Shown here one piece after another: positions 4,021 to 50,400 of a DNA stretch of 64,000 nucleotides; the first letter of the stretch is position 1, and each line of letters opens with the position of its first letter. Source of the stretch: Polytrichum commune (lineage: Eukaryota; Streptophyta; Polytrichopsida; Polytrichales; Polytrichaceae). The position numbers and the translations under genes are program-made. The stretch covers positions 16,678,001 through 16,742,000 of the forward strand of contig OX485809.1 in the NCBI GenBank assembly GCA_950295325.1, given 5' to 3'. Below the pieces are notes generated by a model. The model was not told the origin of the DNA and did not search any database. It was given only the letters and a program-made list of their open reading frames with translations.

Positions 4021-7000
4021 ATAAGAAGAAAAATTCCGGTCTCCGGAGGAGACCGGAGTGAATAAAGTGTATGTTCGTAGAACATCCTAGGCCATGCCTT
4101 ACGGCACTGGCGTTAGACTTGCACATGCATAACATTTAGCTATATGGTTGTGTATCATTATGTATTTAGCATCTCACATGGGCCTCCACTATTTTCCTTT
4201 CTTGGGAAGAAACTTAGAAAATAGGAAGAAACTGACACATGGCATGAATAATGAATAATGCCAGTTTGAATATTAAGAATATTGGGAATAGTGTGAATGA
4301 TAATATTTCTATTAATAATTTGTTTATAGAATAATATTGGGATGAACAATGTATCATGCAAATATTTTGGGATTAAGAGTATTTTATGTGCATAGTGTTG
4401 GGAGTATAACTCCACCCAAATCCCCAAATTTAGCTTAAATATATGAATAGTAAACGAGTATTCTTAGTTTATCCTAGGGACCAATGGAATACATACCAAG
4501 GTCATGGAACCGACCCACATGGTTGAATAATGTTACGGGCCATTGTAAACCATTTGAGAAAAATAAACAAAATTGTGACCAAAATTAATTTCCATCTTGT
4601 TTCATTCCAAGCCATTTCTTCAATGTTATATCTTGTTTGAAGTTTGAGCATTTGAAAGATATGACCATGGCGACATTTGAAGGATAAACCACAATTTCTT
4701 GCCATGGTTGGATAGCAAATAATGTACCACATGGATAGTTGATTGTTATAATACGCAATCCGAAGATGTCACTACCCAATCATGATTTGGATAACTCTCT
4801 ATGATCAAGATCACCCAAGAACACATGTAATTGTTGTTGCAGTTTTAACACAAGAACCCCTAAATTTGGATCTTCATTGGAAACCTTGATGACATGCCTA
4901 GGTGACCATGAAATAAAACCCCCTATACATAGAATATTTATGGAGAAAAACAAATCTATATGTACTAACAATTTTATACTAAGGTAATACACAATAGTAT
5001 AGGAAATATATTTATACTAAGCTTTTCATTTTAATGTCATTATTTCTAACAAAAATATAAATCATGAAATAAACGGGCTTTCACTACATATATAATCCAC
5101 TTTCACTTTCCAATGAGAAAGTCATTGAAGATTTTTTATTTATTTTGATTCATAGGATATAACTCGTAATAATATGTCCCTAAAACATACGTCATTTCGA
5201 TGAATTAAGGTAAATTGGGTGAAACTAGCACATATATCAATTGTCAATTTTCCTCTACACCCTAGGGGGGCATCTTGTACATCTACGATCATTTCTAAAT
5301 TGTTAATAGCCTTTTAAAACGTACACACTAGAGAAAGGTAATATCTCTCCCTTATATACTATGTACACTAATGCATCAAATTATACCCCTTCCTCCACTC
5401 ACATTAGTTCAAACATGGTATGAAGAGTCCACCACCATGACAAAAATCTTGCAAGAATAAGATGTACACAATACAATGAAGGATGTTGAAACATAATAAT
5501 GTGTTGGTGGTTGTATTCTAGTGATGTCACAAAGGAAGGTTTTCACAGTCTTTCAAAATAGTTGAGATTGCAGCCTTCCTATTACAAACAATGAATTGGT
5601 CACATGCTCATGGTAGGTTCTAAAGGAGGTTATTTTATATGTATGTGGTATACATATGTGTGAAGAGGGTATTTTTTTTTTTGGGGGGGGGGGGGCGGGT
5701 ATAAAGCACATGATCTTGATTATACTGCACCCAATTGTTATACATAACACCATTGTTTTCGCCAATTTCATTGAGACTATTGTTACTTAGACGGTGTAGG
5801 AGACATAAATGTTTAGCACGCTCTAGTTGTTGCATATTTCAATTTTTGACTAATAAAATTTGTTGTTCTCTAGAGAACATATGTGCTTGCATCCAACAAC
5901 CCAACATAAAATACACAAAGTACATTTACTACAAGTCTATGATCTAGTAGGTAAGGCTCCAATTGCAAATTTGGCTTACAAAGTTTACATATGGGAGGGA
6001 TATTGTTCCACCTAGTTTTGTACAAATCAATAAGGTGCTATGATTTTATTTTGCACAGGTAAGCATGTGCTTTGGACACTATAAATTAGAAAACATGAGT
6101 GTAGAAAGATGACTTCAGAGAGATTGATGTTTACAAGGGGAGTTATTGCTAACTATATTTTATTTTTGTCTACAAATAAAAGGGCTATTGAGAATTCTAA
6201 AGTAGAGGTAAATGTATAAATGAACATTCTAAAGTTTTTAAGAAACATCATAATATTTGTGGCTACTTTATGACTTAAACGATTATTTGATGGTAAATTT
6301 AGACTCTATAATTTCCTTAGCTTTAATGATGCATGTTGCAAGGTCAAATTCTCATGTGCTACGTCATATGAATGAGAATGAATCTTTAAAATCTTTCTCA
6401 AACTTGAAAGCAAAAGTGAATTGGGGATGAGGTATTTAGTTCGTAAGCAAACATTGGGATGAGATATTTGATCTAGAAAATGTTGGTTTCCAACTCGAGA
6501 AACTTGGCACAATGCAAATGCACATATTGCAAAGCACATGAACAAATGGGGAGGGGGGTAGAACACTTACAACGTATGCCACAGTGGGGAAGAAATGCCA
6601 ACGGGTTTTACTACAAACACATGTGTATCATGTATTCATGTACCTATATACAAGGTTGACAACAAGATGATGAATGCCTTTATGTAGGGGGTTGTAACTT
6701 TGAACTACAACAAGGTCATACACATCATACCCAAATTATATAGGGTTGCAATTATTGTTATGCACTAATTGTCAATAATATTTAATTACCATGTGATGTT
6801 AATATATTGTGGATATATAAATTTTATGAACTTTCATTATATGTAGGTAACTATAGTTATTATTTAGTTCCATTTACTAACAACCAACCTACAATAAAAT
6901 ATTAAGGCTTATTTCTAGATCTACAATTATCAAGTAGATTACATGGTAATAGACCACTTGACAAAATGTAGAATGTGAATTCCATAGTAATAGGGTTTTT

Positions 7001-15463: not shown

Positions 15464-15474
15464 CTAAGATACAT
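15464..15474. repeat. Left target-site duplication of the 11.6-kb transposon
   Basis: CTAAGATACAT lies directly outside the left terminus and is repeated exactly at 27,099-27,109 directly outside the right terminus. Nine to eleven base duplications are usual for Mutator-like elements. Confidence 0.8.
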
Positions 15475-15562
15475 GAGGGAAGCTATCTTATGAACGATGA
15501 GCAGTGAGCGGTGAGCGGTGAGCAGTAACACATGAGCAATGAGCAGTAACATATGAGCAATG
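15475..15562 (+). repeat. Left terminal inverted repeat
   Basis: Starts GAGGGAAGCTATCTTATGA and continues as a chain of GAGCAGTGA, GAGCGGTGA and GAGCAATGA-type motifs, with two GAGCAGTAACA units. These short repeated motifs could be transposase binding sites (inference). Confidence 0.75.
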
Positions 15563-15693
15563 ATTCCAAATTTAGTAAAGACACACGGGTTTAGGGTACA
15601 CAACCAAAATTTTGACAAATTAATTGCATATTTTCAATTGTAAATTGCCAATATTTTAAATGAAGCACAAGTGAAAGGGCCCTATTTCCATAG

Positions 15694-15900
15694 ATCATTT
15701 AAAACACTTTCAATTCATTGCTGATTTTTATTATAATAATCCAAACCAATACATGTCATTTATTGACATCCTTATACATGTAGTTACAACCAACACTTGC
15801 ACAACTACTCACATTCCACAACACCATCAAGCTCAAGTAGGTGCATAACCTCATTATACGTACATGTAGGTGCCATAATTGTGAGCCACTCAAACTGCTC
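15694..15900 (-). repeat. Duplicated 3' end of the transposase gene
   Basis: This stretch repeats 16,270-16,470, the last coding codons of the transposase plus its 3' flank, at about 75-80 percent identity by eye. Both share the GCTGATTTTTATTATAA and CATGTCAT stretches, then coding sequence ending in the complement of a LLEL..(I/V)VECE-stop tail. It is a tandem copy of the gene end and not needed for the upstream open frame, which has its own stop at 16,381. It is either an alternative terminal exon or a relic of unequal exchange. Confidence 0.6.
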
Positions 15901-15981
15901 ATGGGTTGAATTAAGGCCCAGAATCTACAAATGAAAGGAAATTAGATATTAGAAATAGTCAATATGTAGGTAACTACTAGG

Positions 15982-16195
15982 TTTTGAGACATCCGCCTGT
16001 GGATGCGAGTTGTGTAAGAGACTGGTATTAGGTCTGTATCAACCCGGGTTCGAATCCGGTTGGTTACATTGACTGGTGCTATCCCAAATTGAGCTAGTGA
16101 TAAAGCAGGAATAATTTATAGGCGGATACCAAGAAGACGTTACTACGCGGATGTGCGTAGAATCTTCTCAATTATTTTTAATTTTTAGAAACTTG
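15982..16195 (+). mobile_element. Candidate tRNA-derived SINE
   Basis: A perfect RNA polymerase III B box, GGTTCGAATCC, lies at 16,047-16,057. A weak A-box-like TGGATGCGAGTTG lies about 37 bases upstream, the spacing of a tRNA head. Downstream is an unrelated body with GGCGGATACC and GCGGATGTGCGTAG and a T/A-rich tail. The unit separates the two copies of the transposase 3' end. It does not fold into a full tRNA by eye, and I could not define a clean target duplication, so the ends are approximate. Confidence 0.45.
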
Positions 16196-17806
16196 TTCTT
16201 ATTTATCCATGTCAATCAATCAAACCGCTCACGGTTGGGTCGTAGTCTAAATAGAAATGAAGTTACTGAATCATTTGAAATACTTCGAGCCCATTGCTGA
16301 TTTTTATTATAAAAATCCAAACAAAAACATGTCATATTTTGACATTCAAATATATGGTACTTAATAGACCATTTGCAATACTACTCACACTCTACAATAC
16401 CAGCAAGTTCAAGTAGTCGCATGACCTCGTTATAGGTATATGTAGGTGCATGAATGAACTTGTCACTCTCGTAATCCACCTTGCACAAAAATCTAAACAC
16501 ATAATAAAGATGTTTACAATACACCCATTTTCCTGTCTTTCCCAATGCATAAGAGGACATTTTCGTGAAATCCGGGCATGTGCAATGCGGGATGTCGCCA
16601 ATTGTAACATGGTAGGTGATATCCTGCTTGGAGACAATGTTGATTATCACTCCAAAGCCCGGATATGGAATGGCAGTGACCCCAACCACATAGTAACCCT
16701 CCATGAGCCCGGCGCTCTCCCATTTGTTTTTGTAATCCGCAAGCGGTGCTGTTGGATTACGACGCACTGTCTTTCCAAACCTTAATGTAGGGTGGGCGTC
16801 CGGGTTTGGTGGCATAGAAAAATGCGAGCGAGGGATGGGGAGAGTTGCGATTGTTGAAAGCCTACGACGAGGGGACAATGCCTCCCTCTGCTGTAGTTGA
16901 AATCCAGCATCTTCAAGTGCCAAAACCTCCTCTCGCGATAGATTGGTACCTATCTTCACCGGCCATGTGTTGGGTACTATAGGCCAGTCCAACACATATT
17001 TCTTCTTACTGCCACTCACACAACGTTTGGTGTCGTCAGGACAAAACCAAAATTCATACTCCACATTGTTGGGAGAGCGAAATTCCTTCCTGAGCCCTTT
17101 GTATGTTGGAGTAGGTGTGCCATGTTTCCCAGTCCCGACTTTGGCATTGCACATAGTCCCTGTGATGGCCTGCAGTGCCCAACATCGTTTGGCTGAGTTG
17201 GGTGGTAATCTTGCAATGTGCCACTTGGAAGCAAGACAGTCTGTCTCTAACACGGATGTAGTATGAGCCACACCATGAATTGTAGAACTCAACGATTCCT
17301 CTATGCGTTGACGAGTTGCTCGGGCGTTCAGACGAGGAATGGAATAGTTCACTTTGTCGGGTCGATGAGAGTCACAATTAACACCCGGTGGTAGGTTGAG
17401 TTTGCGTTTGGTGGAACCAAAGAGCTCTGACCCTTCCAATGCACAATATCTAGTGTTGACGTCTTCTGCCCCTGGATAAGACTTCATGGCATCGGCCAAC
17501 ATTTTTGGATCTCCACACCTGGCAGCCGCTTTGAGTTTCAAGGATGCCGAATCAAGACCTTTACCATCAGACCCCCCTTTCAACCATGTCCGGTAATTTA
17601 CAATTTGCATGAAGGTACGGATCATGTCGTCCACTGTAGCTTCATATAAACAAGTCATCTTGTTGCCGGACTGTTGGAGCCATTTGTTGTGTACAGTCTC
17701 TGCAAGGTTGCATGTTGGCATTTCCGCACGCTCTTCTATTGTCATATCCTATGAACAACACACAAATACAAGGATAAGACAAACATAAGATAGATTATAT
17801 ATCTAG

Positions 17807-17932
17807 GTTTGGGTCGTTCAACCCAAAATGGCTGTGCAGTTTGGGTCGAACGACCCAAACTGCCTACAAGGTTTGGATCGAACAATCCAAACTGCCTACA
17901 AGGTTTGGGTTGAACGACCCAAACTGTTTGTT
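17807..17932. repeat. Palindrome array, GTTTGGGTCG-NN-CGACCCAAAC type (4 copies)
   Basis: Four copies of a 22-bp near-perfect palindrome with half-site GTTTGGGTCG and a variable central dinucleotide, separated by TGCCTACAAG-like spacers. They lie in intron 1 of the transposase gene. The same palindrome occurs six times in intron 1 of the divergent gene at 22,625-22,828. Confidence 0.9.
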
Positions 17933-17934
17933 GT

Positions 17935-18010
17935 TTGTTATGTACAGTCTCTGCAAGATTGCATATTGGCATTTCCGCACGCTCTTTTATTGTCATATCC
18001 TATGAACAAC
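17935..18010 (-). repeat. Duplicated start of transposase exon 2 (decoy exon)
   Basis: About 75 bases repeat 17,686-17,760, including the intron end, the acceptor AG and the codons for DMTI(K/E)ERAEMP. The palindrome array sits between the two copies. Splicing to this first acceptor would read into the palindromes and stop near the start of the array, so it would give a truncated protein. Confidence 0.75.
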
Positions 18011-20213
18011 ACAGAAAAACAAAAATAAGAAAACATAGGATATATTACATTGAATAATGAAGTTTGATATGTACTTACAAGTAGCATATGTTCACCCCAT
18101 TATCTGTAACGAAAGTGCCAAAATCCCAACCACTCTGAAAGGCCAAGGATGCCTTCTTCGGAGGCAGCTCCAGATGACAACCACCAAGAACGAATCACAT
18201 GGTACTTGGTCTCAGCGTCGTCCATTGTTTTCGCGTCTTTGTAATCCTTGCATATTTGTTTGTGTTGAAATTGCAAGGATGGTTTGATATATTTTTGGGT
18301 CACCTTATCCAAGCTTGCGGACCAATGGAAAAGACATGTACGCTCACGTGCAACCATGGGTAGACTTGGATCACCATCCCCGTAAATCGCCCTCACCGCA
18401 TTCCAATTTGCTTGAGCACTATCAGCCATAAACCCTTTGAAGTTTACGTTTGGTACATCATTATCTGCCATGACAACATTCAAATTTTCCCAAAAGAGAA
18501 TTTGCGCTACACCATCTTCAGATTGCATGTCACAACACGCAATAGTCAACACTTTACAGTATCGACTGTCGTACACATGGCAAGCCATGGTCGTCCAGTC
18601 CTTTAAACGTTTGACATGGTCAAACATAATCCATGAATTCTCCATATCCCCACCGACTTGCATCATCTTCACAAGCTCCACACCACTACCTGGAAGGTCT
18701 ACAGACATCTTGAAAACAAACACTTTGTCCTTTGACTGCCCTGGGAACCGACTACCATGGACGAATTTGAAAGCAGAGTGGTCTTTGAGCGCCATAATAC
18801 TATCCATAGTTCCCATTCCACTACGCAAAAAACGTTTTGATCCAGATACAAAGTTACGACAATTTGGAGAGGCAAGAGTGCTGAATTTGTCCATGACGAC
18901 CTCTAGGGATGAACCAACCAAGTGATGGCCTTCGACATTTGCGGGAGATTTGAGAAGATAATCGGCCAAGAATTGTTTGCTCGCCGCCATAACTATGGCT
19001 AAATTTTTTGCTATGGGTGTTTTCAATACTTCATTTGCAACGCATTGGTATGCCATGTCCAATGATTCACGGCATGTGCCATTGGCCACATGGTGATCAT
19101 GTACACCAAGATAAATGCAAGCCTTGGACATTCCAACGGATGTGGAGTGAATGTATATGATTCGAGCATTACACAAAGCAATGCACACAGGTGTGGAACG
19201 ACATACCTTACACTCGACAGTGGACTTAGTAGGGGGAACAACACCCACAGCAAATGGAATAGGAGTTGAACCGGCCCATTCAGTGTTGTTCCGGAGGCCC
19301 CATTGCGATTCATGTAATCACAGTAGTCATTATGACATTGGAGATGACCAGCACAAGTAGAGCGCCGGAAGGACAGTTCAAAGTCATTTTGGATATTCGT
19401 GGTTTTGGTGGTGCACCAAGGGTGACCGTCGCACATCTTGTCCATGCCGTCCATTGAGCGACCATACGTACTTGGAACTTTGAATGCCACAGGAGGCAAG
19501 AGAAACAAAACATCACCATTAAAAGAAGATGGTAAGTACTTGACTTCACGAACATCTATATTGTCAAAATCAATGGATGCAAGATCGGACTTTGATCTTT
19601 TTCTTGACTTTGTCAGCTTCAAGGCATCAACCATAGTCAACCATGTAGATGAAGGTGAAGGGTGTAGTGGAGGACGTTGAGAAGGTAAGATTTGGAGAAC
19701 CACCTTCTTGTACATAAGACCGCAAGGGGATTTGGCTACATGTATAGGAAGTTGGGAAGGAGTAGAATGAACACTTCTAAATGGAAATGGCGATGTGTTT
19801 GAAAGATCAACAGATACACAAATGTCATCTTTTGAATCTGATAGCACAAACACACTATCATCAAGGGGTTCCACCTTAACAGGTGCGATAGAGGGAATTT
19901 GAACTGTGAATGTACCGGATTCGTTTGTCAAAATGACAGTTGAAGCTTGCATTTGAGACTCAGAAAGTCCTATCACCCTAAATGAACCAGGTCCTAAGAT
20001 CCACATAAAACCAACATCAGTTCTATTTTTTGGAACCAAAATCATTTCATACACCTCTCCATCTGCAGAGTACATCTCATGCTCTAAATACACGGTTCCT
20101 ATCTGGAGGTTGAATCTCAAACTAAGTAAATCCTCTGAAACACTCACATGACCATCATCTTGGAGTGGCAAGATGAAGGGAACAAAAGATCCATGAGCTC
20201 TAATGGTAGCCAT

Positions 20214-20718
20214 AGAAAATCAAAAGAACATATGAACAATACATCACAAAAATATGCGGTGAATGTTGCTTTTGTATAGAGTTATATGACGAAATGAATG
20301 GAAATGAAAACGTGTGATACAATAATGGATGGAGATAAAAGCGTGTGATACATAGCATCTAATAATACAGAAGTGGACATAATATAATAATAGTCAAAGA
20401 CTATTTACGAGCAAGATATACACAAAACGGGGTCAAATACTAAAAGGATTGGTAGAAATTTAAAATATATATGTGTGGACTGACGCAGATTGGTTGGAAA
20501 AATAAATTATTGATCATTATGAATAAAACAAAGTAGGTGTTAGAAAATTTTGGCGGATATAACAAAAATAAACACATAATGACAAACGCGTTGAAATATC
20601 TCGTTCATTAAACGCCAATTACAACATGTGATCGTAATATACGCCGGATTTTGTGAGATAGATACATTGGAAGAATAAATGATAGTACCTAATAGAAAAC
20701 ATATCATAGATACCAACG
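20214..20718. promoter_or_regulatory. Shared divergent promoter region of the transposon
   Basis: 505 bases separate the start codons of the two divergent genes. The stretch is AT-rich and contains TATA-like runs (for example TAAAATATATATG near 20,460), but I cannot assign transcription starts. A head-to-head arrangement implies joint regulation. Confidence 0.5.
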
Positions 20719-21119
20719 ATGGTAGACGATGTAGAGAGAACACCCGTGAGGCCGAAGAGAAGACGTATGAAAGCTTTGTATTTCACTTCCGAGAAAAAGA
20801 GGTTCAGACTCAGTGTGGGAAAGAATGATGCAAAAAAGGAAGGGAAAACAAACTTGTTGAGTACGGTAGAAGAAACTGTGAAGACACTGGATTTTGATGC
20901 GATGGAGGATGATGAAGGTGCAAAGAGCAAAGAAGATGTAGACGATTGTATATCAGAGTCCGAATTGAAGACGGGTTCAAAGAAGACGACAAACAAAAAG
21001 GTAAGTCAGTTCAACATTCACATAATTTGATAGTGCATAAGTTGTAAGTTAGGACGGAGAACCTTATACGTTCACTCACATGTCATGTAGTAGCAATTTA
21101 TAGAGGTTATAAATTGGAG

Positions 21120-21770
21120 AAAAGAAACCCTATACGTTAATGCACATGGTATATAACAGAATCTTAGGAAGGCTAGAAGTCAAGAGAAGAACGCACAGGG
21201 TTTATAAGAGCAACTAAAGAGACGAGAGGTTGGCCGGCGAAACCATGTGCGTTAACGCACAGGGTTTATAAGAGCAACTTAAGAGGCGCGAAGTTGGGAG
21301 GCGAAACCCTGTACGTTAACGCACAGGGTTTATAAGCGCAACTTAGGAAGGCCAAAGTTGGGAGGCGAAACCCTGTGCGTTAACGCACAGGGTTTGTAAG
21401 CGCAACTTAGGAAGCCCAAAGTTGGGAGGCGAAACCCTGTGCGTTAACGCACAAGGTTTGTAAGCGCAACTTAGGAAGCCCAAAGTTGGGAGGCGAAACC
21501 CTGTGCGTTAACGCACAGGGTTTGTAAGCGCAACTTAAGAAGCCCAAAGTTGGGAGAAGAAACCCTCTGCGTTAACGCACAGGGTTTATAAGCGCAATTT
21601 AGGAAGCCCAAAGTTCGGATGCGAAACCCTGTGTGTTAACGCACAGGGTTTGTAAGCGCAACTTAGGAAGGCCAAAGTTGGGAGGTAAAACCCTGTGCGT
21701 TAACGCACAGGGTTTGTAAGAGCAATTTAGGAAGGCCAAAAGTTGGGAGGTAAAACGACTAGGAGAGCCT
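21120..21770. repeat. 64-bp tandem array centred on a 28-bp perfect palindrome
   Basis: About nine to ten units of 64 bases. Each contains AAACCCTGTGCGTT followed by its exact reverse complement, giving a 28-bp palindrome with GTTAAC at the centre, then a GTAAGCGCAACTTAGGAAG and CCCAAAGTTGGGAGGC spacer. The inner units (about 21,300-21,710) are nearly identical and the outer ones diverged, as expected for unequal exchange. The array lies in the 2,080-bp intron 1 of the ParB/methyltransferase-like gene. Confidence 0.95.
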
Positions 21771-22189
21771 AAAATTAAAACAAATATCTATTGTATGAAT
21801 TTAAATTGATGTTCAGAACATAGGAGCAAAAAAACTATTCAAAACGAGGTTAGAATGCAAGAAATGACAAATATGACTACTCAAGTACTCATGCAATACG
21901 TTATAGGAGCTAGAAAATGATACAAAATAGCATAAATTTTTTTTTGCCCCGAAACCCAAAATCTACGAGGTGGCCCAAAACAAGGAAATAGATAGAAGAA
22001 TGAGAAGAGAAAATCATTTGAAACCAAAACAAAATATGAGAAGAATTTGTAGCTACGGAGATTTAGATAATATAGCATGTTTTTGTTTTTTTTTTTGGAT
22101 CCCATTAGCATTTTTTCCAGATTTTACAAGTTTTGGCAAATCTACGAATTCTACAAAAAAAAAAAAAAACGTTTATTTTCAAATTCACG

Positions 22190-22420
22190 TCTCGGCCCTG
22201 TGCATTAACGCACAGGGTCTATGTGCTAACGCACAGGCCTTATGTGCTAACGCACAAGGTGTATGCGGTAACGCATAGTGGCTAGAAAGTTGCCAGCGCA
22301 GACCCTGTGCGTTAACGCACAGGGTCTACTTGCTTAGCTAGAGGCTTCACAAAGTTGGGCAAGTAGAACCTGTGCGTTAACGCACAGGATCTGCACTGGC
22401 AACTTTCTAGCGGCTATGCG
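22190..22420. repeat. Second cluster of GTTAAC-centred palindromes with a large nested foldback
   Basis: Six variants of the CTGTGCGTTAACGCACAG palindrome occur here. The last two lie in the arms of a longer inverted repeat (about 22,274-22,327 against 22,367-22,418, sharing GCTAGAAAGTTGCCAG). The spacer itself contains TACTTGC...GCAAGTA. The DNA could form a nested cruciform. Confidence 0.85.
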
Positions 22421-22624
22421 GGGCCACGAAGAACCATGCTAAATATGGCTGCAGGGACAAGTAGTATAAATTGCCACAACCCCAAAGCATTCAGTCTTTT
22501 TTCTCTCATCCATCGGACCTGAGCTCATCGCTGCAAGCTCTCTCATCTACAGCTGCAGTACAAGGTTTGTTTGCACTTTCGTGGTGACTGGGTAATTGTG
22601 CATAATCAGGCGTAAATTGCGGAC

Positions 22625-22828
22625 AGTTTGGGTCGATCGACCCAAACTGTCTGCCTAGTTTGGGTCGAACGACCCAAACTGTGAGCCTAGTTTGGGTCGA
22701 TCGACCCAAACTGTCTGCCTAGTTTAACTGTGAGCCTAGTTTGGGTCGTTCGACCCATACTGTCTGCCTAGTTTGGGTCGAACGACCCAAACTGTGAGCA
22801 TGGTTTGGGTCGTTCGACCCAAACCTCG
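22625..22828. repeat. Palindrome array, GTTTGGGTCG-NN-CGACCCAAAC type (6 copies)
   Basis: Six copies of the 22-bp palindrome with centres AT, AA, AT, TT, AA and TT. The linkers are mainly TGTCTGCCTA and TGTGAGCCTA, so there is a higher-order unit of about 65 bp. One copy has a single mismatch. The array lies in intron 1 of the ParB/methyltransferase-like gene. The same motif is in the intron of the transposase gene. Confidence 0.95.
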
Positions 22829-25800
22829 CGTCCAACTTTGTTAGACCTGTAGTTGGACGCACAGGGTCTGGCCTTGTAGTTTTGGGGTGAGCGGCCACCC
22901 TAATCGTATAATATTTAAAGGTGCAAATGACTGTGTCTAGAATAATTTTTGTCATTCTTCCCTGTGTTCGTGGTATTCTGTTGTTATTGTTGTTGTTATT
23001 GCTGTTGTTTTTGTAATGTTATTGCTAATGTGTTGATACTTGTTTTGAAATATTTATAAAACTTATTTCATTTGTTTTAGGACCAATCAATGGATTTGGA
23101 AAGAACGACTCTTATTTCTACTGATGATGATTCCACAATGCATTCAACTCAAGATCGTCCATCTCAACGAGTTCATCATCATCAGGACATATCGTCAAAT
23201 CTTCATATTAAGAAAAGAAAAAATGAATCCCTCGATGATTTTGACTCGGATGAAGATAATGATGGTAATAATAAAATTTATCAAGAGAAAGTGTGGGAGC
23301 TTACGAACAAACGAAAGGTCAATTCCACTTCCACAATTTCTTCAATCCGTGTTGGACCTAATGCTCGCTTGCGTATACCCTTATGTCGCATGGTTCCTAT
23401 GCCGATTGTGCGTCCTGCTTTGAAGGGTGACATTACTAAATTGGAGGCGGATTTTTTCAATGGTTATCGTGATGGTGACCGTGTGTTTTATATATCGGCC
23501 ACCGATTCTAAGGGAAACTTTCAATTCGTGGATGATGAGGTTCGCGCATCTTGGAGCCCAAATTGGGCTCAAGCCAATGCCCTGTTTGAATCTCAATTGG
23601 ATACAGATTTGTCATTGACGTCATACAAGAACAAGATGTTTTTTATATGGGATGGAAATCACAGATTTCTTGCTTGGAAAAATTATATTGACCGCGTATA
23701 CACCAAAAATTATGAACGTCATGTCTTTGTGGATTCTATCATTTTGGCGCCCGAGCCTGACGACATTCCAAGTTTGTTGACTGCTATGCATGACATCAAC
23801 AAGTAATGTTCTTGCCTATTCTTTTATACTTATTTCTAGTTTATATTTTATTTTCCAAATTATATCATCATGAATCTAATCAATTTAATGTTTCTTTTAG
23901 GTGAACCGAAAATTCTCACGTATCCACCAATTTGGTGCATACTTTATATCGGATGCAAAGTATTGGCACCATGCCTTTGACTTCCTTCAGAAAGCAAATG
24001 GATCCAAAAAGTTATAAACGATGTGAGGAAAAGTCCGTCGAAACTTGGTATTCTTTGACACGACCAATTTTTTTGGATTACATGTATAGTGTAAGTTCTT
24101 CTACCATTGCTAATATGTGCCTTATGTTTATTCACCTTCATTTTACATTACATCTATATGAACTTATAAATATTGACTTTTGTTTGATTTTTCAGCAAGA
24201 ACTTGTTGAGGCTAGCGATATTGCTCTCAACCAGTACAATGAAACTCATCCTCTTGAACGGACATCAGACGGAGTTTCAAAAGCAATGTCCGCAGCTGTC
24301 AACAAAAAACGTGCAATGTTATCTTCTAGTTTTACGAAACAACTAGCGATTGCCAATATCAACCTTACCTCTGCTTTCCTTGAAGAAGTTAAGCACCATT
24401 GGGGTTCATTTTCGGTGCCTGAAATGCTACAAGAGAAACTTCATCGTGTTGCTGTCAGTGTTGTGGATGCAGAAGTCAAAGTTGGATGGCTCAAGCTTTG
24501 GAATGGCAATAGATTTGACAAAGATGCATTGCATTTCCCGAAATCGCCCCTCTCTGATTCTGCACTTGATGATTGGTTATCAAAGTCTACATATTGGGCA
24601 CAGTTGGAAAAAAAGGCTATCGAAGAGCTTCAAAGTATTCTTTCATCTCCTCTTCAGTTGCCTGCAGATGTGCCTACTCTCTCCGAGTATATCCAAAGCT
24701 GGAAGTTTGCGGCTTTTAATTCAATATTCTATCGTGAATTCCAAAGCGGAAAAGTTAAAAAACACAACGGTTGGGATGAGCAACCTAATATTGATCTTAC
24801 TATGAAACGTGTATTATACAGGTACAACCTAATCTTATTATTTTTTTGATTTTTTTTATTCCATTTGTCAAATTGTCATGAAATATTTGACTTACAATAT
24901 TTTGTGTGTAGGTATTTTCGATATGTTTTGATTCCACATAAATGCGTTATAGGGGAACCTCGTTTTTTCCCAAATTGGCGTGACACTGGTGCAGGAGATT
25001 CATGCATGTTCACTACTGATATTTGTTTGGATTGGTCGCTCCCACACTATGAGGATTGTGGTTGGTATCTTGATTGTCCTAAGGATGCATGTCCGTCAAG
25101 TGAGAAGACAATCCGTCAGATAAATGATGCTAAAAATGTGGATCCTCGTGATACTGCAATTTTGCAAGCACAAATTGTGCAGCTTAAACTTAGAGAGCCA
25201 GAACCAAAAGAGACAAAACGTCGTAAGAGGAAACATGTTCCTAAAACCAAAATACAAGATCAATCGGATATTTCACAACATGAAGAATTGCTTGTTCTTT
25301 CCAATGATTTGGATAAGAATCCACTTGGAGGGGAAAGTTCAAAGTATACGTGCGATGTATTGGAATTCCATTACTCGAGCACCTATGACGCTATTCATCG
25401 TGCGCCAACGAATATTTTGAGAAAAGAGTTATTCATACTGAAGAACTTTCTCACGCTCTCTTTTGCTCGATCTACTGCTGTCAAGAACAAGTCTGAAGGG
25501 GTTGAAGTAGGCCCTCCTGAGTGGATCCAATGGCGGACATTTCTTGAAAACGTAAGTATTATTGTTTTGGTATTTTCTGTAATGTTCTTACTTTCATTTG
25601 GATTTTATTTTGTGTCTTATATTGTGATATATTGTGGTATTTCAGTTCAAAGACAATCGCGAATTTCATGTCATGGGAAGTCCGACTCCATTTGCCGTTG
25701 ACTTGGTTTTTCTGCAATTTCCCGACGGTCTTGACTTCAACCTCTCCAATAGACCTGCTGAAATTCCTCTTTGGAATAAATATTACAAGAACTGGATGGT

Positions 25801-27029
25801 TGCAACAATGTCCTTGTGCAAGTCCATCTTGTCTGATGATGGCGTCCTCATAGTATTTTCTGCTATCGATATGCAAACCAAGAAGGTTTTGAATTCAACC
25901 TTACACAACGGCAACATGAAAGTTCTTAGGACTTTTATTTGCCTCAATTCGTACATGGTGTTCAAGGATCCGGAGTCTCCAACCTACACCGTAAGTATAA
26001 CATATCACAATTGTTTCTATTTAATTATTTTGGTGTTATTTGCATTGTATATAGTTTTAACACAATTTATATTTTTTTGTAGACTCCGGCATTTATGGCT
26101 CATGTCTTGGTAAGGGATTTTACTACCACAAAATCCACGAGACAACCAAACTCCACTTTTTTTGGCACTGGATTGAAAAGCAAAAACTTGCTTTTCAATT
26201 TTGTGGATGAAAAAAACATGTTTCTTCAAAAATCGGGAAGACCTTGGAGGGGGCCATATCAAAAATCGCCGCGTTTTTTTTCAAGATCTTATTGAATTGT
26301 TTACACCATCGAATGGACGCGTTGTTGATTTGACATGTTCCACTGGAGCTTCTATCCTAGCAACACGCGCATGTGGCAGACATCTGCTTGCATTTGAGGG
26401 TGATAATGACATGTTTGAGCACATATTGAAACCGCTTTTGGAAAACGTTTTGAAAGAGGGGTCATCTAAGGAGAATATACAAGATCTCACAAAAGAAGAT
26501 GATAACCTCTCAGATGAGGAGATGCTTGAATTTGAGTGTGAGTAAGTTTTAATACAATAAATTTTTATTCAATTCATTTGTTTCATTCAATTCATTGGTT
26601 CATTTTTATTTCTTCACATTATTTACATGTTTCATCGATTTGATTTCAGGAATACGATTGGAAAGAGGACATGTCTCCCGTTTTGGGCACATAGACAATT
26701 CCTACGAAGTCCAAGCCGTAGCCCGCGTCTCCCATCATATGCCGAGAATGTTGCAATTGCAATGTTGAATCTCGAAGATTCGGATCCAAATGAAGAATCT
26801 TGCTATAGTTCCAAAATCAATTCGCAATGCAAAGGTGCTCGAATATATATAGATGACGAGGCAAAAGATAGTTTCATGTCTAGTGCTACTACTGATGAAT
26901 AAATTTTTGGACTTCATGTTGTTTATCCTTCTCAACCCTCTTATTACTAAACCCTAAAATCATCATTTTTAAGGCCACAATTCCACGGTTATAGGATATT
27001 GGTGGCCCTATTACCAAAATTTTCATCTT

Positions 27030-27098
27030 CCTCACTGCTCATAAGTTACCGCTCATCCCTCACCGCTCATTGCTCACCGCTCATAAGATAGCACTCCC
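27030..27098 (-). repeat. Right terminal inverted repeat
   Basis: Read on the complement it starts GGGAGTGCTATCTTATGA and continues with GAGCGGTGA/GAGCAATGA-type motifs, matching the left end at 15,475. Confidence 0.75.
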
Positions 27099-27109
27099 CT
27101 AAGATACAT
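27099..27109. repeat. Right target-site duplication of the 11.6-kb transposon
   Basis: Exact second copy of CTAAGATACAT. Confidence 0.8.
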
Positions 27110-44492: not shown

Positions 44493-47400
44493 ATGGCCTC
44501 ACGTAAGGGCCCGCCGACGCTTTGCTGCCACGCGCCCGCCTCTAATCTGGATACCACATCCGCAGCAGCAACAACTAAAACAACAAGGCACTCGTCCTCC
44601 TCCTCAGCGATGGCAGCCACCTCGCGAGCAGCAGCAGCAGCAACATCAGGAGGAGGAGGAGGAGGAGCAGCAGCAGCAGCAACAACATCAGGAGGAGATC
44701 ATCCCGAGCAGCAGCAGCAGCAGCAGCAGCAACGGGGGCCGGGCTCTCTGGAGCCGGCGCCCGCGTCAGGTGAGGTAGAGGAGCTCCTCGGCGACGATCA
44801 CCTCCACCTCGGTCAGCAGCAGCCCGAGATTCACCGCCACAACAACAACAACATTCAGGCGCCTGCCTTCGGGGGCTCGCTAGATTCCGCCTCCGCCGTC
44901 GCCACCGCCGCAGCTGCTGTCAAAGGTCGTACCGGGAAGCCACCACTATCTCATCTCATCTCCCTTCCCTTTGTACCTCTGGAGTGGATAGATTCACGTA
45001 GGTCCCATTACATCCCATCCGCCGGCTGCATTAGATAGATAGAATGCGGTGGGACGGGCATCAGGGCGGAGCTCCCGAGGTCTCCCCTCCTGCGCCACAG
45101 ATTCCTGGAAATCATATCCATTCTTAGGGGGACAGGCTTAGGGATCTCTCTCGTTCGCTACCCCGAGATTGTTTCGCTAGAGGATTGTTACAGAATGACT
45201 TCTACGTCGGCGTCCAATTCCTCTATCTGTCTTTCTGTGAGACTGTGAGACCGAGACTTGTGTGTGTCTTGTTTGAAATCTCGGTGAGACCAATTCAGTG
45301 TTAGAAATTCGCCTCTGGACTGCGTGTTGTGAAATTTTCGTCCGACATTGAAGAAGAAACTAATGAATGCGTCGACAACATGTGTCCTGGTGTGGTGTAT
45401 TTGCAGGAGCGGGAATTTCGGTGCCTCTAGTGCAGTCAGCCCATCCGCTGGACCCGTTGAGCCCAACCGAGATTGCTGTGGCCATATCCACAGTCCGCAC
45501 TGCTGGCTCTACTCCCGAAGTATATTCCTTTTCGCCCCCTTTTATATCTCTCTCCCTGCAAGTACATCATCATCATCCCTCTTCCTGTGCACGAATTTGA
45601 TTCGTCTGCTCACCTCTTTCCTGCTCTTTGTTCCTTAGTAACCACATTGAGGATTCCGGAGCTGTATACCGCTGTGATAGTACTGGATGCAAGTGCCCGT
45701 TCAACTACATACGTTTTAAGCTTGAATAAAAAAGCTCCCAGTTCTGAAGCATCATTGTCAAAGCTGGGAATTCCCGTTGATTCGTTGGAGTGGTTATGTG
45801 TTGCTCTATTGTAAAGCATAAAAATCCTCAATTTGAGAAATGTGGTGATGGCAGGTGCGAGATGGAATGCGCTTTGTGGAGGTTGTACTGAATGAGCCAG
45901 ACAAGATGGTTGTTGCTCTCGCAGATGCTTATTTTTTCCCTCCTTACCAACCCACGTTGTATCGTCCGAAGGCGAAAGGAGGTGTCAAATTGAACTTGAA
46001 GCTGCCACCTCGGCAAGCGAGGCTGGTGGTTTACAACAAGAGGACAAATGAGACGAGTATTTGGATGGTGGAGCTCAGTGAGGTTCATGCTGTTGCACGC
46101 GGTGGCCACACTCGCGGGAAAGTTCTCTCATCAGAAGTCGTTCCTGATGTTCAGCCACCTATGGTATGTGGCTGTAAAAACAACCGAAAAGGTTTGGTTA
46201 AATCTACGAGGGAATAATGGAACACATCAGACAATCATACTTCCTGTGTTTTCTGGTAACAAAAAAGACAGTGGATTGTGCATACGGTGTGTATTAGGAA
46301 TTCTCTACCAGGGCTTCAGAATTTCTTCCATAGGTTTCTGCATTCTTATGTCGTTTTTTATGATCTTATCCTTCAGCTCAATGGGACTTTTTCTTTGGGA
46401 GTTTGTCCACTATAATTTTCCAACGGTTGTTTTGCATACAAAATTAATAGTTTCTTCCCACTTGTGGTGTATACTCGGAGGTAGCGCTTGAATTTGAATG
46501 AAGGAGAGGGCAACCCATTTCGGTTCATTGAGGGCCAAACTCATATTAGCACCTCTTGATGGCATGCCAAAATGAGTTTGACCCTTAATTAACCGATGTA
46601 GAATATTGGTCTTTGTTTGAACCTCTCACACTGCCTCCAAGCATGCCCCAGGAACTTACCAAACATGGAAGGTCTTGTATTGCAAACAACCAATTCCCAA
46701 CCAAAAGTCATATGGAGTTAGAGGATCAAAACCTCTACTGGACTTATTTATTGGTTCCTGAGGTTTGTGTGTCGTTCTTAATACTTGCATTGAGTTGCCA
46801 GAAAATGCACCATATCCTGATGACAGAGATCTGTACAATGGCAGGATGCCATGGAGTATGCACAGTGTGAGGCTGTTGTGAAGGAGTATGGCCCTTTTGT
46901 GGAGGCCATGAAAAAGCGTGGCATTGATGATATGGATCTCGTCATGGTGGACCCATGGTATTGGCCTTCCACCTTGTGGCAAGTAGATGTCTAGTTCTCC
47001 TGTTGATTTGAAGTTGTGAAGAGTACCCATGCTTGTTTGCTCTTCCTGGACATTTATGTTTGATTGAGCTGGGTCTTTCTTCAAGCCGGAAATGTACCAT
47101 GGCCATGTTTTTGAGCTTACTTTAATCTTTACCGACTTTTTCTTGAACAATTGAATCACAATAAAATCTACTCTCTGGTAATTGTGATGGACCACACTTA
47201 GTCAGTTGCAACTTATTGGATCTGTGCATCACTTGGCTTAGTAAATCTAAGTAAAGTAGAATTGAGACTTAAAAATGATCCCCTCTTGTGATTGTCATAC
47301 TACTCAAGTTCACTCTCAAGTCCACTCACATTGTTATACCCAATTCTAATGGAGGAATGGCTGGCTTTCACAGGTGTGTAGGTTATTACAGCGAAGAGGA

Positions 47401-50400
47401 TTCTCCAAGCCGCAGACTTGGCAGGCCATTGGTTTTTTGCCGAACTGAAAGTGATTGTCCATTGGAAAATGGTTATGCACGGCCTGTGGAGGGCATCCAT
47501 GTCCTGGTGGATATGCGACAGATGCAGGTCTAGCTTGCTATAACCCGCTGCTCTTGCACAACAGAATGCTCTAAAGGCAATGCAGTATTCTATTGGCCAC
47601 CCTTAGCTAGAGTGCAATATAGCATCCGTGAGTGGTGTAGTGGGTATTCTCCCTGGACATTTAAGTTGAAAATTGGTAGATGGGAAAAAAGCTTTGTCGA
47701 TGAGGTGTTGACTAATGAGCTTGCCACTCACCTATGCTTCGCATTCATGCGTGTATCCAAGGACCTTGTTTCTTTGATATATTCTTTAAGTTAGAATAGA
47801 AAGAGAACGTCCTTGCACATGCTGAAGAATGCTACAAACCGGTTTGTTGCTGGACTGGGCTCCCTGCCCACCAGGGTCCTGTGTTGTCCTTGTGACCAGT
47901 GGGGTTAGGAAGAGCATTCCAATATGGATAATTGGATTGCCAAGCTTGTGCTTCGTCTCTTGTGGAAGCAACTAAACAAGGATGAAAGGCTGGGACATTG
48001 CGAACCCTGCACTTGCTTCCAACCCAATTCCACAATTTAAATTCTACTTGCAGCCCTCCTTCCCTTAACAATAACACTTATTTTGATTTAGGTGCTGAGC
48101 CTAGACAATCTCTTGGAATTCTGTCTCTGCAAAGGGCCATTTAAAAGGGCAGTAAAGTGGGAGCATATGTGGAATGGAAGAGGCTCCTTCAGAGAATATT
48201 ATTTGGGTTAATATCATAGCATCCTTGAAGAACTTGTCAATGTGCAAATTGGAGTTTACAAATTATCTTCTGGATGAATGCAGGTCATAGAGTTTGAAGA
48301 TCGGTTTGTTGTTCCTCTGCCGCCTCCGGACCCATTGCGCAACTATACTGCTGCAGCTTCCCGTGGAGGAGTAGATCGCACAGATATCAAGCCCTTGCTT
48401 ATTACCCAGCCCGAAGGTCCTAGCTTTCGGGTCAATGGATATGCAGTGGAGTGGCAGAAGGTACATGATAGAGAAGATGAATATCATAATTGCATGCTGC
48501 TATGCTGTTAGATGGATCATGAGACTAAACTTAGGTCAGATCAGGACACTTAGAATTTACAGTCGTAATTATTTGGAGGGCTGTAAATAATATTCCATAA
48601 GGTTATACTACTCGAACTGATGAGGAAATTTGTGATTGGGCAGTGGAACTTTCGTGTGGGATTTACTCCTCGAGAGGGCTTGGTTATCCATTCAGTTGCG
48701 TATGATGATGGCAGCCGGGGCAGGCGTTCAGTTGCACATCGCCTCAGCTTTGTGGAAATGGTTGTACCTTATGGAGACCCGCATGACCCACATTATCGGA
48801 AGAATGCTTTTGATGCAGGAGAAGATGGGCTTGGCAAGAATGCACATTCTTTAAAGCGTGTAAGTTGGAATGTAGAGTTTTAGGCAAACAGGATGTTTAT
48901 GTAGTTTTCAGTCAAACATTGCAATTGAAGCCCAAATTAGGTTTCATCAAGTAAAGTTCATGGCTTTAAGGTTATTGACTTGTTAGGTTCCACTCTGGAG
49001 AACACTCGTTTTTTTATCTTGGTCTACAGCATACATATTTCATGTGAGCCTGTGCATGCCCTGGATTGGCCTGCCAGGGTATATGCTGAAGGGTGTCGAT
49101 TTGTTTCCAGTTATGAAGATAATAGTCTTGACGAACATGAGTGCACGGAAGGACACCACTTTTGTAAGTTAGTTTGTTAGAGTTCTTGCTCTTGGCTGAG
49201 TGGGCTCCTTTAAAATTGTGCAGGGCTGTGATTGTCTTGGTTACATCAAGTACTTTGATGCTCATTTCACCAATTTCCTTGGAGGAGTGGAGACACTGGA
49301 GAACTGTGTTTGCATGCACGAGGAAGACAATGGTATTTTGTGGAAACATCAGGATTGGCGGACTGGTATGACTGAAGTCCGGCGGTCGCGGCGACTCACT
49401 GTCTCCTTTTTTTGCACTGTTGCCAACTATGAATATGGATTTTTCTGGCACTTCTATCAGGTTCATTGCCTACTCCTTTACATCCTTTGTATGCTGAAGA
49501 AGGATGTCATGGTAGTTTGCCAAGTTGTAGCCAGCTGCTGCAGAGGTTCAGGGTTCCAAAGTAAAAACCATGGTCAATCACCTGCTTAACTTGAAAAGTA
49601 TCAGGAAATCTATTCATTCACATAGTGCTTCATGCTAGCACTGAATATGAAGAGGTTTCTTCACGAGATATAAGCAATCAGGGTAGTGAAACTCTGGTAA
49701 ACCTTTATGATGTCCAATGATGATAAATCTAGACACATTACACCAAACATCTGATTTAGTTTGGCATTAAAATCGATGTGCCATGTTGATTCGAGGGGTT
49801 TCTATGACTTGTGTGCACCAAGTGTCCTATGACAGCCTCTCTAGTTGCCACCCAATAATTACAAGACAATTAGTGCGCGTTGATGATGAATGGTGTGGGC
49901 CACACTAAATCAGATGTTTAGTGTGGTGAGTACAAGTTACTGTACAATTATCCACTCTATTGCGTGAGTGAGGCTCTTGGTGTAGTGGACAGTTGGCATG
50001 ATGTTTGGTAATTGTTTGCAGGATGGGCACATTGAGGCAGAGGTAAAGCTGACAGGTATTCTTAGTCTTGGAGCATTGAAAGCAGATGAGAATCGTAGAC
50101 AAGGGACTGTTATAGCACCTGGATTATATGCCCCGGTGCATCAGCACTTTTTTGTTGCACGACTTGATATGGCTGTTGACTGCAATCCTGGCGAAGGTTT
50201 AAATCAGGTGTGTAGTCAGAGTTGAATAATTTCAAAATCTTAAAGTGCACATTCCAGCAAGTCTTGGCAAGGTTGCTGGAATAGTTCACCATAGGAAGTC
50301 ACAAATTTATTATTGCCACATGTTATTCTCACCTCAGAGTCTTGGACTGTCTTGCATGGTAGTTAGCATATGATTTAAACTTTGTGGAAATTGGAAACAT

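Follow-up and report, generated by a model that had tools for sequence, protein, structure and literature searches.

The question raised by this locus is what a bacterial-type protein may do for a DNA transposon in a plant. In a stretch of contig OX485809.1 of Polytrichum commune (the window, 64,000 nucleotides at its full length), an element at 15475-27098 carries two divergent genes, gene1 and gene2, and the predicted product of the latter joins a ParB/Srx-like fold to a methyltransferase-like domain. We consider it about an even chance (approximately 0.5) that the gene2 protein binds palindromes in the introns of the element and keeps the element open against host silencing in the manner of the VANC proteins of VANDAL transposons, with an exchangeable cassette.

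The element, its palindrome arrays, and cassette exchange

The element begins with GAGGGAAGCTATC and ends with GATAGCACTCCC, and its terminal inverted repeats (TIRs) of 62 nt are 85% complementary. Matching inverted termini, an exact 11-bp target duplication, and a single 11.6-kb element with two divergent multi-exon genes had been proposed in an earlier note made from the sequence alone, and all of these were borne out, the boundaries 15475 and 27098 being exact. The window copy was compared with six more copies (C1a, C1b, C3, C5, C6a, and C6b) from the genome searched, which comprised 408 Mb in 64 contigs with element matches on contigs C1-C7. Contig C8 of this genome, of 146,561 bp, has an intact rbcL and is thus plastid; its rbcL protein and a frame downstream, read as accD, hint at a land plant of a non-flowering group. 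The left end was the same in all six, the right end was the same in the five in which it was covered (that of C5 lay beyond the piece taken), and a target-site duplication of 10-11 bp, differing in sequence each time, was found in five; the pieces of C1a and C1b start inside or at the left duplication. Since the seven copies are 94.3-99.4% identical in pairwise comparisons over the element, it appears to have been active recently. The best 40 of 570 candidate matches to the left 100 bp and the best 40 of 576 candidate matches to the right end scored 98-100% identity. The element is best explained as a DNA transposon of the cut-and-paste type with two divergent genes, belonging to a large, many-copy family, and has the following features.

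15464-15474, no strand: left target-site duplication CTAAGATACAT, repeated exactly at 27099-27109
15475-15543, plus strand: left TIR (arms 15482-15543 and 27031-27092, 85%)
16381-17748, minus strand: gene1 exon 2, containing CxCx(n)CxH, a SWIM-like motif (Pfam SWIM at E 0.062, which does not reach the cut-off)
17807-17924, no strand: W1 array in the gene1 intron, 4 sites at up to 3 mismatches
18079-20213, minus strand: gene1 exon 1, frameshifted in the window copy, a single open frame of 741-742 codons in all six other copies
20214-20718, no strand: spacer between the divergent genes (gene models)
20719-21000, plus strand: gene2 exon 1, N-terminal tail, open in all seven copies and in phase with exon 2 (model only)
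21190-21750, no strand: W2 array in gene2 intron 1, 64-bp period AAACCCTGTGCGTTAACGCACAGGGTTT
22196-22389, no strand: three further W2 sites in gene2 intron 1
22626-22824, no strand: W1 array in gene2 intron 1, 32-bp period GTTTGGGTCGNNCGACCCAAAC, 6 sites
23081-23802, plus strand: gene2 exon 2, predicted ParB/Srx-like fold (modelled 23315-23800) with a box II-like DGNHRxxAW (AlphaFold, Foldseek, VIA-align)
23901-24090, plus strand: gene2 exon 3; in the window copy, the stop codon falls at the beginning of this exon (gene model)
24196-24821, plus strand: gene2 exon 4, middle region (gene model)
24912-25551, plus strand: gene2 exon 5 (gene model)
25646-25990, plus strand: gene2 exon 6, with VFLQFPDG instead of DPPY at the motif IV position of the methyltransferase-like domain
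26083-26541, plus strand: gene2 exon 7, motif X (PWRG...KSP) and motif I (DLTCSTGAS), with a one-base shift in the window copy
26650-26902, plus strand: gene2 exon 8, C-terminal tail (gene model)
27031-27098, minus strand: right TIR, pairing with the left arm
27099-27109, no strand: right target-site duplication, identical to the left copy

The introns hold arrays of 22-bp palindromes of two types, W1 (the sequence given above for its 32-bp array) and W2, the core of which is CCCTGTGCGTTAACGCACAGGG; these arrays are absent from the earlier note and were added by the follow-up analysis. At up to three mismatches, W1 has 10 sites and W2 has 11, all 21 in introns and none elsewhere in the 64 kb. 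The window has 11 perfect palindromes (arms of at least 9 and GC of at least 40%), every one of them within the element; 20 shuffled versions of the element yielded a mean of 0, which rules out a chance origin. Exact sites number 9231 for W1 and 444 for W2 genome-wide, with 0 for the reversed control of each, and 45 of the first 50 W2 sites listed were within 6 kb of a listed gene2.

Regarding W1, 36 exact palindromes of this type are present in a second, abundant element at C1:613000-629000. One strand of this element has a 562-aa frame, and the other encodes a protein in which a DGQH motif and, by eye, a methyltransferase-like stretch can be read. The element showed no tblastn similarity to gene1 or gene2 at 1e-3, and neither the motif nor the stretch was supported by Pfam or hhalign; because the hhalign alignment with gene2 was not significant, any kinship would depend on motifs recognized by eye. 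Among the 150 copies listed of its DGQH region, 21 are identical over 191 aa, which points to very recent copying of an element apparently unrelated to that in the window. W1 may have been borrowed from, or lent to, this second element. Of the two types, W2 is therefore the stronger candidate for a cognate site of the putative binding protein.

The relationship between gene2 and its palindromes was examined in a matrix of 19 loci, seven gene2 groups, and 9 palindrome types, with 2 mismatches allowed. Loci O1-O10 are 10 of the 30 listed gene1 matches that have no listed window-type gene2, and D1 and D2 are distant loci, of which D1 has both genes and D2 lacks gene1 in the stretch read, the methyltransferase part being in neither model. 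Besides W1 and W2, the types were GGGTGGCCGTTAACGGCCACCC in O2/O3/O10, GGCATCTCGGATCCGAGATGCC in O1/O7, GTATTGGCGGNNCCGCCAATAC in O6, GGGTTTCGGTACCGAAACCC in O8, TTTGTGCGCNNGCGCACAAA in O4/O5/O9, and GGTTTCGGNNCCGAAACC and TTGAAGCCNNGGCTTCAA in group D. With two exceptions, each type was restricted to its own gene2 group, so that the matrix is nearly block-diagonal, and perfect palindromes exceeded the shuffle maximum at 17 of the 19 loci. In seven of the nine types, CpG steps are placed three positions to either side of the dyad (+/-3); W1 has them at +/-2, and the second D type at neither distance. The count is post hoc, as the motifs were found by looking. Every one of the seven groups has at least one type with CpG at +/-3. 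All seven between-group gene2 pairs tested, which did not include the D group, were saturated at synonymous sites.

A comparison of the window element with O2 gave 94.1% identity over 15475-17795 and 88.6% over 17934-20415, the gap corresponding to the gene1 intron array, followed by 71-86% in two pieces to 21009, no blastn similarity over 21009-26913, and 72% to the right end. Synonymous divergence (dS) between the gene1 copies of C1a and O2 was 0.184, and gene2 of C1a was saturated against that of O10, which belongs to the O2 group (proportion of synonymous differences, ps, 0.79). The simplest reading of the sequences is that exons 2-8 of gene2 travelled together with the intron-1 arrays, as one unit of approximately 5.9 kb. 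Exon 1 of gene2 stays on the transposase side (window 20904-21009 corresponds to O2 5908-6013) and exons 2-8 are exchanged; O6 and O7 likewise have exon 1 in common and not the remainder.

O2-type palindromes were found within 9 kb of 9 of the 30 listed gene1 matches without a window-type gene2, versus none of the 73 with one. The exact O2-type sites listed (50 of 52) form 21 clusters, 9 of them beside a listed gene1 and 2 of the other 12 near listed left ends; these 12 say little, the gene1 matches numbering at least 103. Thirteen of the 40 left ends listed have neither gene listed within 13 kb, and in all six of these that were read, gene1 is truncated and between one and nine O2-type sites, with 2 mismatches allowed, occur within 4 kb. 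In two of these derivatives, which were followed further, gene2 could be modelled in part, with 4 stops in one and 5 in the other; neither has an exact O2-type site in the stretch read, which ends short of the right terminus. The persistence of degenerate arrays in decayed copies fits use in trans, and also plain inheritance.

The two genes are arranged head to head, with gene1 (minus strand) in 2 exons and gene2 (plus strand) in 8, and the spacer between them is probably a promoter common to both. Among the 103 gene1 matches listed, 73 have a listed gene2 match within 15 kb, all 73 head to head, and 38 of the 40 right ends listed are within 13 kb of gene2. The absence of gene2 from the remaining 30 was ruled out in the 10 that were read, each of which has a diverged gene2 on the same side and head to head; the earlier note had proposed to check this linkage in other copies. 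The window copy is dead in both genes: gene1 has a frameshift with the first stop at codon 397, and gene2 has a stop at codon 336 and the one-base shift in exon 7. Both frames are open to the end in three of the seven copies (C1a, C5, and C3). That of gene1 (1166-1167 aa) is also open in C1b, with C5 being one residue shorter; in C6b, it is open without a start ATG, and in C6a, it stops at 999. The gene2 product, open in the same three copies, is 1173 aa. Every modelled intron in the seven copies is GT..AG, with one exception: intron 6 of gene2 in C3 ends in GG. Splicing of C3 may therefore be faulty, which leaves C1a and C5 as the two copies in which no defect is apparent. Reading frame A of gene2 exon 3 (VNRKF..) was dropped in favor of frame B, which is open and conserved between subfamilies.

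The dN/dS values between C1a and C3, 0.19 for gene1 and 0.14 for gene2, indicate that both genes have been maintained by selection, which for gene2 in the window family is purifying. In the same pair, dS along gene2 was 0.42 in codons 181-400 (ParB-like) and 0.046 in codons 851-1100 (methyltransferase), an inequality that may be taken as a sign of recombination within gene2.

Some further observations concern the element and its surroundings. The observed/expected CpG ratio was 0.76 inside the element versus 0.46 in the remaining window, which may reflect young age or low methylation. A tRNA box-B-like stretch at 15979-16182, also present at the O6 and O7 loci at 78-80%, is probably a short interspersed nuclear element (SINE) inserted into the element. 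Outside the element, frames at approximately 45850-49590 of the window resemble a copper amine oxidase gene, as judged by eye.

The gene2 protein and the identity of the transposase

The earlier note had assigned a ParB/Srx-like DGNHR domain to gene2, and the structure search bears this out at the level of the predicted fold. The alignment used had 16 rows from seven groups, two rows being fragments of one locus, and was drawn from 16 of 19 contiguous exon stretches, with the near-copies C1b, C5, and C6b omitted. AlphaFold with this alignment gave the ParB-like exon a predicted local distance difference test score (pLDDT) of 72.7 and a predicted template modelling score (pTM) of 0.72, and a single-sequence prediction with a pLDDT of 33 was discarded in its favor. 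In Foldseek, 41 of the best 43 rows were sulfiredoxin, ParB, Noc, KorB, PadC, or SbnI entries, the other two being the uncharacterised protein 2hwj and a dynamin. The scores were modest (best E 0.021, none below 0.001, query TM-score at most 0.43, several lower rows of low probability); the fold is accepted because almost the entire list belongs to one superfamily. VIA-align gave Z 8.4 to ParB 7bm8 over 95 residues at 2.5 A and placed 4 chains at 8 or more, the tool itself warning that values below 8 are common. These results support the prediction that exon 2 takes a ParB/Srx-like fold. Boxes resembling I, II, and III of ParB were recognized by eye in this order in all seven aligned group representatives, with box II reading DGNHC in O6 and EGNHR in O8 and O7. 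The similarity of gene2 to ParB is at the fold level: no ParB domain was found in the sequence by Pfam, PHROGs, or NCBIfam.

Homology of the C-terminal part to beta-class N4/N6 methyltransferases was detected in the permuted motif order IV-X-I. A profile search of the PDB returned DpnA at 8e-5 and CcrM at 0.006, aligned from motif IV to motif I; Pfam N6_N4_Mtase matched five of the seven members (best 1.4e-6), the window-family member alone reaching 0.0067, below the cut-off. The two members without a match are presumably O7 and D2, the models of which lack all or most of the domain. In addition, PHROG_67 matched the window-family member at 1.7e-7, and NCBIfam CcrM matched two members, the best at 3.8e-4. 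A tblastn search of phages with gene2 gave matches in the last tenth of the query, the motif I region, and nowhere else, with a best E of 0.1. The five rows extending as far as the S-adenosylmethionine-binding motif I retain it as STG or GTG. The catalytic (D/N/S)PP(Y/F/W), on the other hand, is absent from all six groups that could be read, in which motif IV reads QFPDG (the window family), DYPDG, DIPEG, DLPEG, DLPEG, and DIPDG, i.e. D-x-P-[D/E] or QFPD. Since DPPY is replaced in all six, amino-methyltransferase activity of gene2 is unlikely as judged from these alignments. The permuted methyltransferase-like domain of the earlier note thus stands as homology, with its catalytic motif lost.

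Regarding gene1, which we regard as the transposase of the element, the DDE/MULE assignment of the earlier note was confirmed by no model. The Mutator-like element (MULE) DDE domain PF10551 was not matched by the gene1 or gene2 proteins in Pfam scans, and none of the 142 PF10551 matches in the genome is within 5 kb of the 103 listed gene1 matches. A three-sequence gene1 alignment gave no relevant match in the PDB or Pfam, the SWIM-like motif did not exceed the Pfam cut-off (best E 0.036), and hhalign against four canonical MULE fragments of the same genome was not significant, a weak test given the shallow profiles, with one fragment, L044, missing the DDE core. The order D (FDHV), SED, D (MADS), CxxH, and E (LAET) resembles MULE transposases by eye. 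Some MULEs have no TIRs, so that the TIRs of the element, which agree with this superfamily, are not diagnostic. Target-site duplications of 10-11 bp in the six of seven copies with both ends covered lie within the 8-11 bp range given for MULEs in PMC6446971. Because no MULE model matches and the catalytic order was read by eye, gene1 is referred to as MULE-like.

The proposed mechanism and its alternatives

In the reading that we prefer, gene1 would be the transposase of a two-gene cut-and-paste element and gene2 would encode a sequence-specific protein combining a ParB/Srx-type fold with a methyltransferase-derived, probably non-catalytic domain. As a symmetric complex, this protein would bind the palindrome arrays and, spreading from them, keep the chromatin of the element open, as VANC does for VANDAL; protein and sites would evolve as a matched cassette that may be exchanged between elements with similar transposases. 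Several observations weigh against it. W1 is not specific to window-type gene2, many of its sites being located in another abundant element. O1 and O7 carry two types, one of them that of O6, which is explained by recombination, as O7 and O6 share approximately 1.24 kb of the gene1 start, spacer, and exon 1 at 88.7%, after which similarity dissolves into repeats; the O8 and D types have a half-site in common, and each matches loci of the other. Perfect palindromes at O4 (0) and D1 (1) do not exceed those in shuffles, the sites there being either imperfect or shorter, with arms of 8. Within the O groups, dN/dS was 0.5-0.99; as these values come from automatic models that include broken copies, we do not take them to indicate relaxed selection. 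The palindromes here are symmetric, unlike the VANC21 motif, and a Pfam-A scan at E up to 5 detected neither DUF1985 nor DUF287 in gene2, so that nothing suggests that gene2 is a homologue of VANC.

A more specific version, which we put forward tentatively and rate well below an even chance, is that gene2 encodes a nucleotide-gated ParB-type clamp that loads at parS-like arrays and slides over the 12-kb element, excluding host methylation, with clamp and sites exchanged as an orthogonal pair and each lineage protecting its own copies. KorB, a plasmid clamp of the ParB fold, controls promoters, and transcriptional autoregulation of a similar type, in which the gene2 protein acts from the intronic palindromes on both divergent promoters, would be in line with the presence of KorB among the structural matches, the distance of approximately 500 bp between the genes, and arrays in both first introns. 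We consider it unlikely: the arrays are long, and imperfect O2-type sites remain in all six truncated-gene1 derivatives, two of which have a decayed gene2, although plain inheritance could also explain this persistence. Almost the same doubt applies to self-modification, one of the proposals of the earlier note, in which an active N4-cytosine or N6-adenine methyltransferase would mark the DNA of the element at the palindromes. The homology to DpnA, CcrM, and N6_N4_Mtase and the STG or GTG of motif I in five groups would suit such an enzyme, and the authors of PMC12477816 suggest binding and modification of their own element for the algal proteins; the replacement of DPPY in every group read leaves the proposal unsupported.

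There is still less to recommend a role as a transposition cofactor, in which the gene2 protein and the arrays would assist in synapsis or target choice. Integration apparently requires mudrB, a second gene carried by the first complete Mutator element (PMC6446971), and gene1 and gene2 are tightly linked; however, the palindromes are intronic and not terminal, and they differ between elements with a similar transposase and left end. The least probable of the explanations considered is that the arrays are merely unstable, hairpin-prone intron DNA and that their match with gene2 groups reflects the shared descent of one cassette. Arrays adjoining gene2 are inherited together with it, and the copies within a group are related, yet CpG recurs at an equal dyad distance in each group despite saturation in all seven between-group pairs tested, and W1 is also carried by the separate gene1 intron. 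The binding of the palindromes by the gene2 protein and a VANC-like action against silencing accordingly remain our preferred, conditional account.

Known systems and significance

In PMC12477816, the large DNA transposon Sola1-1_Ec32 of Ectocarpus is described as carrying a ParB-like and N4/N6 methyltransferase protein of approximately 1100 aa on the strand opposite the transposase, and green and red algal cases of ParB-like methyltransferase proteins are cited. Compared by description, gene2 similarly joins both domains and is located opposite the transposase, and it differs in its plant host, its different, SWIM-like transposase, its degenerate catalytic motif, and the group-specific arrays; the main text of that paper contains no word beginning with "palindrom". 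The claim of the earlier note that no plant MULE had been described with such a partner may still hold, whereas the class of partner is already in print for algal transposons. The same two domains, a ParB-CTPase fold fused to an N6_N4 methyltransferase, have been described in phages, with sulfiredoxin named as the commonest eukaryotic form, in a paper whose main text contains no word beginning with "transpos" (PMC12704722). Gene2 departs from the phage fusion in its long middle region and in the loss of DPPY. With ParB/parS, Noc/NBS, and KorB, gene2 shares the predicted fold (Z 8.4 to 7bm8), the order of boxes by eye, and palindromic sites.

VANC21 binds short motifs within tandem repeats, which are located upstream of VANA and in the introns of VANC and VANB, and VANC is less conserved than VANA (PMC5735166); motif arrays differ between VANDAL lineages, and VANC has DUF1985 and DUF287 (PMC5735166, PMC10398659). 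The element in the window resembles this system in an additional gene far more diverged than the transposase and in lineage-specific intronic tandem arrays, and the comparison with VANC and VANDAL drawn in the earlier note is backed by palindromic arrays specific to gene2. It differs in the lack of both DUFs and in palindromic motifs with a mostly CpG core, and its anti-silencing role is proposed by analogy. In the literature consulted, from which subscription papers were mostly missing and which is therefore a weak guide, we came across neither a land-plant case of this partner class nor a description of matched palindromic arrays.

As far as seen, the element combines a known kind of partner protein with a new host group and with matched arrays that bear the hallmarks of co-evolution of the VANC type. 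The genome provides seven naturally occurring pairs of protein and site on related elements, including two on elements with a similar transposase, so that a simple binding and chromatin test becomes possible; with its matched arrays, exchanged cassette, and degenerate active site, the system allows a VANC-like anti-silencing model to be tested directly. If this model were true, orthogonal protein-site pairs would be usable as tools, and plants and algae would use an unrelated bacterial-type protein for the task performed by VANC, which would represent a case of convergence.

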